Assembly (NCBI GenBank): GCA_038746285.1
Contig: JBCDKT010000029.1
Coordinates: 1 to 50,704 of the forward strand
Length of the DNA: 50,704 nucleotides
Direction of reading: 5' to 3'
Source: Bacteroidota bacterium
Lineage (GTDB): Bacteria > Bacteroidota > Rhodothermia > Rhodothermales > JANQRZ01
The position numbers and the translations under genes were made by a program. The notes beneath the pieces are model-generated. The model had not been told where the DNA came from. It made no database searches and saw only the letters and a program-made list of their open reading frames with translations. Shown piece after piece: positions 32,521-37,635 of the stretch (within the stretch, counting starts at the first letter, position 1; each line of letters opens with the position of its first letter).

Positions 32521-33183
32521 TCAAGAGGTGGCAGCCCCGACGCCGCGCGCGCCGAGGGCGCGGAGCGCGTCCATGATCCGGCCCTGGACCTCGCCGATCT
32601 CCCCGACGCCGTCGATCTCGGCGAACGGGACCGAGTCGCGGAAGACGGCGGCGACGGGCAGGGTCTCGTCCTCGTAGACGCTGAGGCGGGTACGGATCGC
32701 GTCCGGCTTGTCGTCGGAGCGGTGGACGAGGCGGTCGGCCGGCAGGTCGGCCGGCGGCGGGTTGAAGTCGAGGTGGTAGATCGCGCCGGTCTCGCGGTCG
32801 GTGCGGCGGCCCGCCAGCCGCTTGATGATCGGCTCGGCGGCCACCTTCAGGCTGACGACGGCGTCGAGCGGGGTGTCGTGCGCGCCGAGGTAGCCGAGGA
32901 GCCAGCGCGCCTGCTCCGTTGTGCGCGGGAAGCCGTCGAGGATGAACCCGTCGAGCCCGAGCGCGTCGAGCGCGCCCTCGACCGTTTTGTTCACGACCGA
33001 GTCCGGGACGAGCTCGCCCCGGTCGAGGTAGCTTTCTGCTTCGAGACCGACCGGTGTTTTGTCGCGGCGAGCGGCGCGGAGGAGATCGCCGGTGGAGATC
33101 TGCTTCAGCGCGAAGCGCTCGACGAGGTGGCGGGCCTGGGTGCCCTTGCCCGCTCCCGGCGGGCCGAAGAGAATGAGACGCAT
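32521..33183 (-). CDS. adk: Adenylate kinase
   Basis: Adenylate kinase balances AMP, ADP and ATP. The 220-residue protein begins MRLILFGPPGAGKGTQARHL (P-loop 7-15), with QISTGDLLRAA, DGFILDGFPRTTEQARWLL (AMP site), RRTDRETGAIYHLDFNPP (LID domain, not the Cys4 zinc type) and RLSVYEDETLPV. It is a long-type kinase with a typical LID. It is the first gene of the unit adk, polyprenyl synthase, ptsH, small gene, ptsI, isomerase. A -7 box (33229-33236) lies 46 bases upstream. Confidence 0.97.
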   Translation of the reverse strand: MRLILFGPPGAGKGTQARHLVERFALKQISTGDLLRAARRDKTPVGLEAESYLDRGELVPDSVVNKTVEGALDALGLDGFILDGFPRTTEQARWLLGYLGAHDTPLDAVVSLKVAAEPIIKRLAGRRTDRETGAIYHLDFNPPPADLPADRLVHRSDDKPDAIRTRLSVYEDETLPVAAVFRDSVPFAEIDGVGEIGEVQGRIMDALRALGARGVGAATS

Positions 33184-35236: not shown

Positions 35237-35509
35237 ATGCCTCCGTTCACAGTCCAGCCGACGCCCAACCCCAACAGCCTCAAGTTCACCGCTTCCGACC
35301 GCGCCTTCATCGAGGAGGGCATGGGAGCCTTCGCCAGTGCCGCCGAGGCGGAGGGCGACGCGCTCGGTGCCCCCCTTTTCGCTTTGGACGGCGTCCACAA
35401 TGTGCTCGTCCTCCCAGGCTTTGTCACCGTCACCAAGACGACGGAGACCGACTGGGACGCTCTGCTCCCGCGCATCGAGGCGATCCTGACGGAGCACCTC
35501 GCGGCCTGA
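35237..35509 (+). CDS. Nfu/NifU N-terminal domain protein, stand-alone
   Basis: This 90-residue protein begins MPPFTVQPTPNPNSLKFT, the Nfu_N hallmark TPNPNSLKF, with VLVLPGFVTVTKT near residue 60. The domain is normally fused to a C-terminal NifU domain with CxxC that carries a [4Fe-4S] cluster; that half is absent and the frame ends cleanly. As a free domain it may be an adaptor for an Fe-S scaffold encoded elsewhere, or a chaperone. The gene is divergent from the YqjE-like gene and convergent with the LuxC-like gene, only 3 bases away. Confidence 0.9.
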   Translation: MPPFTVQPTPNPNSLKFTASDRAFIEEGMGAFASAAEAEGDALGAPLFALDGVHNVLVLPGFVTVTKTTETDWDALLPRIEAILTEHLAA

Positions 35510-35512
35510 TTC

Positions 35513-36457
35513 TCACAGCCCCACGAGAAACTCGATCAGGTCAGGGTTGCGTTGGCCGAGGGCCGGCCGGTGCACGTCGCCGGGTGCGGCCACCGGCAGG
35601 TCGGTGGCTAGTCGCTCTGCCACGTCCGGCGCTGCTACGAGGAATGAGAGGTGCGGCTGGGATCGCAGCCAGACGGTCACGTCGCCGAGGTGCTTGTATT
35701 CGGTCCACCGGACGTGCGCGGCACCTTGCGGCTCCGGCGCGCCCTTGCTGACGAGGAAGCCCGGTCCGGCAGCGTGCGACCGCTTCGCGGAGGCAAGAAA
35801 AGCGGCCGGGAGCGCCAGCGTGCCGTCGGTGTCGGGGTGCGGCGGGAAGAAATCGCGGAAGCCGGCGAGGGCGTTCAGCAGCGCGTCGGGCTCCAGCCCT
35901 GCCGGGGCCCACACGACCGAGGGCGTGCCCGGCGCGGCGCCTTCGTGCAGGAGCAGGTCTTCGGCCAGCCCGCTCAGCGCCTCGCTGTCTTCCTGACCGC
36001 CGATCACGGCCACGGTTGCCTCGTTTTTTCCTTCTGCAATAACAGCTTCCTGGTCTGAAGTGTCAGTGCCGACGCGCACCCTGTCCGCTGCCCCCTGTAC
36101 CTCCGACCAGAACGCAGGCAGCAGCGCAGGCGACGCTCCCGGCGGCGCGACCAATACGGCATGCCCAAGTAGAAACGCGCCGAGCACGGCCTCCCACCCC
36201 GCAAGCGGACCGCTTTCCTCACAAACCACGCCGACCTTCACCGTCCGCTCGGCCGCCCGGTCCCCGGTCCACGTCCGCAATGCCTGCTCCGTCGCCTGGT
36301 GCGCCCGGTGGTTGAGCGCGAAGGCCAGGCTCTCCTCGGTGAACCGGTTCGGCGCAGCGAGGGTCGCCTCAGCGGCCGATGTGCGTGCCGGGTGCTCGGG
36401 GTCGCGCCAGCGTGCGGCGCTGGCCGCGACGGCCTGGATTCGGTCGCCCAGCGTCAC
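35513..36457 (-). CDS. Degenerate acyl-CoA reductase (LuxC-like) family protein
   Basis: This 314-residue protein is collinear with Bacteroidota acyl-CoA reductases. TLGDRIQAVA, NRFTEESLAFALNHRAHQ, RTVKVGVVCEESGPLAGWEA, LGAFLLGHAVLVAPP, EAVIAEG and the C-terminal ALGQRNPDLIEFLVGL align block by block from memory. A stretch of about 20 residues after EAVIAEG is missing, and the place of the nucleophile motif (GLGCR-S/N-VS) reads GAAPGTPS, so the catalytic cysteine is gone; none stands nearby. It is therefore probably not a reductase and may have a structural or binding role. It starts at GTG 36457, overlapping the RNase D stop by 4 bases, so the two are translated together. Confidence 0.7.
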   Translation of the reverse strand: MTLGDRIQAVAASAARWRDPEHPARTSAAEATLAAPNRFTEESLAFALNHRAHQATEQALRTWTGDRAAERTVKVGVVCEESGPLAGWEAVLGAFLLGHAVLVAPPGASPALLPAFWSEVQGAADRVRVGTDTSDQEAVIAEGKNEATVAVIGGQEDSEALSGLAEDLLLHEGAAPGTPSVVWAPAGLEPDALLNALAGFRDFFPPHPDTDGTLALPAAFLASAKRSHAAGPGFLVSKGAPEPQGAAHVRWTEYKHLGDVTVWLRSQPHLSFLVAAPDVAERLATDLPVAAPGDVHRPALGQRNPDLIEFLVGL

Positions 36458-37635
36458 CGGCCCGGCAGCACGCGGGGCAGCGCCGTCTCCGGGTTGACCC
36501 CGACCGCGCTCTCGCCGCGCAGCAGGTCCAGGAGTGCCTCGCCGGCGAGCGTGCGCCGCCAGCCCTGCAGGAGCGCGTGCTCGTCGGGCTTGGCCTCGGC
36601 TCCAGCAGCGACGAGCCGCTCCACGCTCGCGCGGTTGGCGACGAGCGCGGGGTCCACGTCGTGCCCGAGGCTCTGCCCCTTGACGAGCGCGAGCGCGAGG
36701 TCGAGCCGGGCCTGCTCGGCGTCGTCCGAGCGGCGGCCTTGCGGGGGGCGCGGCCGGTCGCCTTTCGGCACGGCGAGGCCTCGCTCGACGGTCTCGACGA
36801 GGGCGTCGCCGTAGCTCCGGCGCGCGTTGTCGCTCAGGCCGCGCACGCTGCGCAGCGCCCCGGGGTCGGTCGGCTTGCGCTGCGCGAGCGTGACCAGCAC
36901 CTCGTCCGGGACGATGTGGCGGCGCGGTCGGTCGCGGTACCGGGCTTCCTGCTCGCGCCACGCCCCGAGTTCGCGCAGCACGGCGTAGTCGCGCCCGGAG
37001 AAGCCCCGCTTGCCGCGCCCCTTGATCCGGTGGTAGTGCGCCCAGGGATCCTCCTCGGCGTAGAGTGCTGGGTCGTCGTAAAGTTGCATCTCCTCCTCGA
37101 CCCAGGCCGTGCGGTCGCGCTCGCGGATGTGATCCCACAGCGCGTCGTAGGCGTCCGGGAGGTAGCGCACGTCGTCGCGGGCGTACTCCATCTGCGCGCT
37201 GCTCAGCGGCCGCCGGAGCCAGTCGGACCGGGACTCCCCTTTCGGCAGGTGCACGCCGACGGTCTCTTCGATGAGGGCCTGGAGCGAGGTCGTCGCCGTC
37301 AGCCCGACGAAGCCGGCGGCGACGCGGCTGTCGAAGACGTTCTTCGGGGCGAAGCCGTCGTCGCTGCCCGCGGCTCGGTGCAGGATCGTGAGGTCCTGCT
37401 GTGCGTCGTGGAGAATCTTGACGACGGAGGCGTCGGCCAGCAGCGCACCGATCGGGCGGAGGTCGAGCGCGGCGGCGTCGATCAGGAACGTCTCGTCGCG
37501 GCTGAGGCCGAGTTGGACGAGGCCAAGGCGCGGGTAGTAGGTCCGCTCCCAGACGAACTCCGTGTCGAGCGCCACGCGGTCGGCGGCGCGGGCCCGGGCG
37601 ATGAGGTCGGCAAGCTGCTGCGGGGTATCAATCAT
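36454..37635 (-). CDS. rnd: Ribonuclease D
   Basis: This 393-residue 3'-5' exoribonuclease trims tRNA and other RNAs. It belongs to the DEDDy group: exo I ALDTEFVWE (Asp24, Glu26), exo II LHDAQQDL, exo III YARDDVRYLPDAY (Tyr and Asp). HRDC domains follow, with LRELGAWREQEARYRDRPRR and IVPDEVLVTLAQRKPT, and a second at about 300-390. It begins ATG 37635 next to the inverted repeat 37640-37720. It overlaps the LuxC-like gene by 4 bases, an unusual partner. Confidence 0.95.
   Translation of the reverse strand: MIDTPQQLADLIARARAADRVALDTEFVWERTYYPRLGLVQLGLSRDETFLIDAAALDLRPIGALLADASVVKILHDAQQDLTILHRAAGSDDGFAPKNVFDSRVAAGFVGLTATTSLQALIEETVGVHLPKGESRSDWLRRPLSSAQMEYARDDVRYLPDAYDALWDHIRERDRTAWVEEEMQLYDDPALYAEEDPWAHYHRIKGRGKRGFSGRDYAVLRELGAWREQEARYRDRPRRHIVPDEVLVTLAQRKPTDPGALRSVRGLSDNARRSYGDALVETVERGLAVPKGDRPRPPQGRRSDDAEQARLDLALALVKGQSLGHDVDPALVANRASVERLVAAGAEAKPDEHALLQGWRRTLAGEALLDLLRGESAVGVNPETALPRVLPGR

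Follow-up and report, generated by a model that had tools for sequence, protein, structure and literature searches.

LuxC makes fatty aldehydes for bioluminescence and acts with a partner: LuxE loads the acyl group that LuxC then reduces with NAD(P)H. To our knowledge, no role has been described for the LuxC–LuxE pair of Bacteroidota. In a sample of 148 genomes of this phylum, LuxC was detected in 70 and LuxE in 63, and outside the order Rhodothermales the two occurred in an identical set of 60 genomes (60/60 co-occurrence). Inside the order, the same sample contained three LuxC carriers with LuxE, all of them with an intact LuxC, and seven without LuxE, all of them degenerate.

An enzyme fold that was kept after losing its catalytic residues is found in human ALDH16A1, a pseudoenzyme of the aldehyde dehydrogenase superfamily which is thought to act via protein interactions (PMC10650815). 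The protein described here resembles ALDH16A1 in having a related fold, in the loss of catalytic residues and in the retention of the protein. It differs in belonging to another family, and its loss goes together with a missing dedicated partner, an eroded cofactor half and a distribution across a bacterial clade. Among the literature matches listed, whose scope mostly did not extend to subscription papers, nothing concerned LuxC or LuxE in Rhodothermales or a LuxC pseudoenzyme.

We analysed a contig of 50,704 nucleotides from a Rhodothermales genome (JBCDKT010000029.1; hereafter the window), which encodes a degenerate LuxC-like protein that we call pseudo-LuxC or the window protein. Our favoured explanation, which we consider probable, is that it represents a clade-wide pseudoenzyme which, having lost both its reductase chemistry and its partner LuxE, persists as a binding module.

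Pseudo-LuxC is an ortholog of LuxC-like reductases

The open reading frame is real and runs from a GTG start at 36457 to a stop at 35513 (Table 1). The first-pass annotation had related its product to LuxC and had proposed a search with the LuxC profile PF05893. That search was negative: the window protein matched zero families in Pfam and NCBIfam at E values up to 10, and PF05893 had no match in its own genome. At an E value of 0.01, this curated profile matched 24 of the 38 proteins in our LuxC-like alignment (A5); many of the LuxC-like proteins of the order, to which the window protein is orthologous, match PF05893. The relation to LuxC itself held, as fold, synteny and tree agree on it. 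A search of 60 related genomes with the window protein as query gave matches in 49 of them, and its blocks could be aligned with those of 47 other orthologs, in line with the earlier claim that the block order of the Bacteroidota acyl-CoA reductase family is kept.

A profile built from 18 intact relatives (A2) matched 99 of the 114 genomes of the order, at one place in each except for G084, which has a short and weak extra match, and G055, in which the gene is split over two contigs. In the window's own genome it matched at one place, as two pieces of the pseudo-LuxC gene, and a search for a second, intact LuxC copy there with A2 and PF05893, as had been recommended, found none. In other genomes, PF05893 also matched frames of ~480–590 residues at a distance from this locus, which to judge by their length are probably ordinary aldehyde dehydrogenases; they have no A2 match and occur in genomes with intact and with degenerate orthologs alike.

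Structure prediction was the other proposed check. AlphaFold returned a confident model of the window protein (pLDDT 94.9, pTM 0.90; the alignments used for folding excluded L149, L169 and L172) with a LuxC fold. Its best solved match was LuxC of 7xc6 (chain A, Photobacterium phosphoreum; Foldseek E value 3.3e-13), with the same fold over the whole length and the same block order (Z 29.4, rmsd 2.5, 312 of 314 residues aligned; runner-up Z 24.0). The predicted model of the intact Roseithermus ortholog (pLDDT 95.9, pTM 0.92) likewise had LuxC of 7xc6 as its best solved match. A profile of the intact relatives aligned with 7xc6 LuxC at an E value of 0.005 with the conserved Asn and Cys in register, GNxP falling on AGNVPL.

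The gene neighbourhood tells the same story. In 25 of 40 loci, the LuxC ortholog and an Nfu-like gene are arranged tail to tail, and a shared downstream block contains adenylate-kinase-like and polyprenyl-synthase-like clusters in 34 and 35 of the 40, respectively; these three names are our assumption from family knowledge. The shared block and the common neighbours show that the window gene and the genes for LuxC-like reductases in related genomes are the same gene. Taken with the tree and the predicted fold, pseudo-LuxC is an ortholog of these enzymes and not a paralog, and synteny and tree establish its descent from them. Transfer of the locus by plasmid was considered and dropped, as there was no plasmid match.

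Table 1 Pseudo-LuxC, its altered regions and its neighbours in the window
Feature	Position	Strand	Basis or remark
Pseudo-LuxC (degenerate LuxC-like protein), 314 aa	35513..36457	-	GTG start; single copy found in genome
Residues 73-151, shortened and eroded remains of NAD(P)H-binding Rossmann half	36005..36241	-	Identity, with matched and sister-pair controls
Ser82 codon, column of the conserved GN[IV]P Asn	36212..36214	-	Alignment
Cys79 codon, sole cysteine of the window protein; in 3/3 members of the window's family	36221..36223	-	
Main deletion site, at the junction of residues 147 and 148; ~25 residues fewer than in the Roseithermus ortholog	36014..36019	-	Alignment
Pro176 codon, column of the catalytic Cys (GxGCR)	35930..35932	-	Alignment
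Residues 152-255, former catalytic (acyl-accepting) domain, strongly conserved	35693..36004	-	Conservation; boundary set by hand
RNase D, upstream, GTGA overlap	36454..37635	-	TIGR01388, 301 bits
Nfu-like protein, tail to tail with pseudo-LuxC	35237..35509	+	Neighbour in 25/40 loci
Adenylate-kinase-like gene, in conserved downstream block	32521..33183	-	Cluster 3, 34/40 loci

Active-site residues are lost in 39 orthologs of the order

Unlike LuxC, the window protein has neither of the two conserved active-site residues and has a shortened Rossmann half. The catalytic Cys column of GxGCR is occupied by Pro176, and the Asn column of GN[IV]P by Ser82, within ESGP. The first-pass annotation had recognized the missing nucleophile and had ascribed it to a deletion. 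The Cys is indeed gone, but by replacement, as the main gap lies ~28 residues upstream of its column. The deletion is also real, although somewhat larger than the ~20 residues first estimated: the window protein lacks 36 of 343 consensus columns, ~25 of them in one gap relative to the Roseithermus row. In the predicted models, two helices and one strand of the Rossmann half present in the Roseithermus protein are absent from the window protein, and this loss of segments from the NAD(P)H half is strongest in the window's genus.

Across the order we extracted 98 orthologs, which do not include the split gene of G055, and counted 97, leaving out the G074 fragment. Degenerate orthologs made up 39 of the 97; all 39 lack the Asn, whose loss the first-pass annotation had not noted, and 37 lack the Cys, whose position is taken by P, R, H, A, S, D, N, E, V or T. 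The remaining 58 are intact, with GN[IV] and GxGCR, the Asn being replaced by His in three of them. Beyond the order, all 21 rows that we examined kept both residues. The two degenerate proteins with a Cys belong to the Rhodothermus lineage (G037 and G051); they carry Arg at the Asn position, and LuxE was not found in their genomes. Judged from sequence, their inactivity would rest on the Asn loss alone. For the other degenerate proteins, too, inactivity as a reductase is the most likely consequence of these changes.

The three intact proteins with His (L037, L112 and L113, from G038, G094 and G095) are related to one another and keep the Cys, and LuxE is present in their genomes. Either the enzyme does not strictly need the GN[IV]P Asn, or a variant chemistry is at work in these proteins.

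Among named records, Roseithermus sacchariphilus has an intact ortholog and two Rhodothermus MAGs are degenerate by the Asn, one still with its Cys. The named record nearest to the window is the Rhodothermales MAG IP29b_bin.81.

Degenerate orthologs occur without LuxE

A LuxE-family gene adjoins six intact LuxC copies and lies ~2.5 kb from a seventh. The Pfam LuxE profile proved insensitive as a detector (12 of 60 genomes) and was replaced by a profile of 13 members from the order (A1), all 13 of which match PF04443; A1 also matches LuxE of 7xc6 at 8e-17. With A1, LuxE was detected in 57 of the 114 genomes of the order. It accompanied 54 of the 58 intact orthologs and none of the 39 degenerate ones, an association that the first-pass annotation had not mentioned; the other three matches were in G007, G055 and G074. 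Fisher's test gives a P value of 6e-23 for this association, a figure that ignores kinship and does not reflect 97 independent events.

A1 found no LuxE for four intact orthologs, in genomes of varying completeness (G010, 97%; G017, 85%; G098, 62%; G100, 91%). Nor did it find LuxE in the genomes with degenerate orthologs, among them the one-contig assemblies G004 and G012, or in the window's own genome, which is 96.6% complete, with a missing stretch possible. Pseudo-LuxC shares its ancestry with the LuxC–LuxE pair of Bacteroidota, of which the degenerate clade retains the LuxC half only, in altered form.

In two families of the order, the whole pair seems to have been lost: the LuxC ortholog was not found with A2 in 3/3 genomes of one (f4) and 8/9 of the other (f12), and A1 had no LuxE match in either.

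History of the loss

In a LuxC tree rooted on other families and computed without the trait columns, 38 degenerate rows formed one clade (SH-aLRT 87) nested among intact rows, with G031 as a second case; one lineage of the clade is presumably Salinibacter. The active site was lost only about twice, in the main clade and in G031. On the best tree, the Cys was lost eight times (once in G031) if it cannot be regained, whereas three changes suffice if it can. With so few losses, a kinship-aware test on independent pairs of degeneracy against LuxE absence (P = 1) had no power.

The branch that bears the Rhodothermus lineage is long, which makes the placement of this lineage less sure. A first tree of two neighbour genes (75 rows) rejected a single degenerate clade (p-AU 0.014); in it, two Rhodothermus-lineage rows had no adenylate-kinase hit, and their other gene scored only ~180 bits. 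Ten named genomes were then set aside and both genes required of every row, a choice that followed sight of the first result, and the resulting tree of 65 rows, in which the Rhodothermus lineage stands outside the test, did not reject a single clade (P = 0.56).

The Rhodothermus-lineage genomes G037 and G051 also bear on the order of events: without LuxE, they lost the Asn and not the Cys, suggesting that the partner went first, which we regard as the most likely sequence.

G074 carries a Cys-bearing LuxC fragment (L094, at the end of contig C162) that groups with Roseithermus, and a LuxE fragment on another contig (start of C46). The adenylate-kinase-like gene on the contig of the LuxC fragment groups with family f13, as does the genome's family label. 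The intact pair was either acquired by transfer or retained, the latter implying more than one loss in the clade. G074 fits the rule that intact LuxC goes with LuxE; it lowers our confidence in the overall account slightly.

Constraint has moved off the cofactor half

Loss of the active site was not followed by decay of the reading frame: all 39 degenerate orthologs, taken as A2 matches, are free of internal stops. By the Nei–Gojobori method (NG86), dN/dS was 0.08–0.38 among degenerate pairs (computable for 13 of 14), with 0.23 between the window gene and its genus mate, and 0.09–0.22 among intact pairs (computable for 9 of 12). Saturated dS left the other degenerate pair and the other three intact pairs without a value, one further degenerate pair had a dS of 2.9, and some rows serve in two pairs. 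With catalytic residues lost and the gene under purifying selection, pseudo-LuxC answers the description of a pseudoenzyme in these two respects.

We then compared conservation by domain, with limits set by hand from predicted secondary structure (N-terminal arm, 1–65; cofactor half, 73–151; catalytic domain, 152–255; C-terminal part, 256–314); the label catalytic (acyl-accepting) domain is our assumption, by analogy with aldehyde dehydrogenases. Mean pairwise identity in degenerate versus intact rows was 0.42 versus 0.43 in the arm, 0.59 versus 0.56 in the catalytic domain and 0.33 versus 0.36 in the C-terminal part, whereas in the cofactor half it was 0.29 (0.286) versus 0.46 (0.459). In all five bins matched for arm identity, degenerate pairs showed lower conservation of the cofactor half than intact pairs and approximately equal conservation of the catalytic domain; at an arm identity of 0.4–0.5, for example, the values were 0.29 versus 0.45 and 0.58 versus 0.55. 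In sister pairs that we chose, each row being used once, the ratio of cofactor-half to catalytic-domain differences had a median of 3.0 for the 14 degenerate pairs, against 1.2 for the 16 intact ones (one-sided P = 2e-5).

The acyl-accepting domain is thus guarded as strictly as in the enzymes, which favours a binding module over a relic or a rescued reductase. We propose, tentatively and at slightly less than an even chance for the account in full, that in one clade of Rhodothermales, including the Rhodothermus lineage, the LuxC half was turned into a conserved non-redox protein with a new role. The protein would descend, by vertical inheritance, from one half of a two-protein fatty-acid reductase. 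LuxE would have been lost in the ancestor of the clade, after which the LuxC-like protein may have lost the GN[IV]P Asn and then, several times, the catalytic Cys. The NAD(P)H half, freed from its old constraint, would have eroded and lost segments, while an enzyme-like constraint would have persisted in the N-terminal arm and in what was the catalytic domain. Through the old acyl-accepting domain, the protein would most likely bind, without redox chemistry, an acyl thioester, the carrier of such a thioester or a partner protein. An earlier suggestion of a pseudoenzyme with a new function stands in so far as selection has kept the gene; the new function is only indirectly indicated, by that selection and by the domain-wise shift of constraint.

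The same conserved domain could instead house a new, non-redox enzyme, in which D167, R201, H207, H248, R250 and W251 catalyse, for example, hydrolysis or transfer of an acyl thioester. Asp167, Arg201, His248, Arg250 and Trp251 are invariant in the degenerate rows, and His207 is among the conserved residues of the domain that are invariant or nearly so. Some other positions are even more conserved than in the intact enzymes (for instance Pro205, from 0.84 to 1.00, and Tyr254, from 0.88 to 1.00), and at the position of window residue 296, Gln has become His in 89% of degenerate rows. However, most such residues are invariant in the intact enzymes too and may be structural, and the ten residue types at the old Cys position include no common new nucleophile. 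We consider a new enzyme unlikely.

Slightly less likely still is a relic, a gene made useless by the loss of LuxE and in slow decay. The shrinking cofactor half would be expected of such a gene, as would the lineages that seem to have lost it, such as the three f4 genomes with neither LuxC ortholog nor LuxE. Against slow decay speak the uninterrupted frames, dN/dS values well below 1, a catalytic domain conserved at the level of the enzymes and a confidently predicted fold.

A functional Cys elsewhere in the pocket had been named as an observation that would overturn the loss of the nucleophile, and the window protein does have a single Cys, Cys79. It is found in 3/3 proteins of the window's family, in the loop that formerly held the Asn, and could in principle serve an acyl reductase that is loaded without LuxE. 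This is very improbable, given that 35 of the 39 degenerate rows have no Cys at that position, four have no Cys at all and erosion has affected the NAD(P)H half.

The clade-wide pseudoenzyme reading, with its retained binding domain, makes the order a natural series from enzyme to pseudoenzyme: intact pairs, then two Rhodothermus-lineage genomes in which the partner is missing and the Cys is present, then proteins in which the Cys is variously replaced, with constraint moving off the cofactor half along the way. It opens two questions in cultured bacteria, namely the role of pseudo-LuxC and that of the LuxC–LuxE pair in Bacteroidota.

The RNase D neighbour

The first-pass annotation had also pointed to the overlap with RNase D, and the stop of RNase D and the start of pseudo-LuxC do overlap, as GTGA. 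The overlap suggests translational coupling of the two genes, and RNase D is the neighbour in 3/3 members of the window's family. A functional unit of the two is nevertheless the least credible explanation: RNase D was found next to the LuxC ortholog only in this family (3 of 40 loci) and at none of the remaining 37, whether degenerate or intact (some loci are short). We therefore set RNase D aside as a meaningful partner, its clade-local position being probably incidental; the Nfu-like gene is by far the more frequent neighbour. The RNase D assignment itself scores just above its threshold (301.2 bits against a TIGR01388 cut-off of 298.95).
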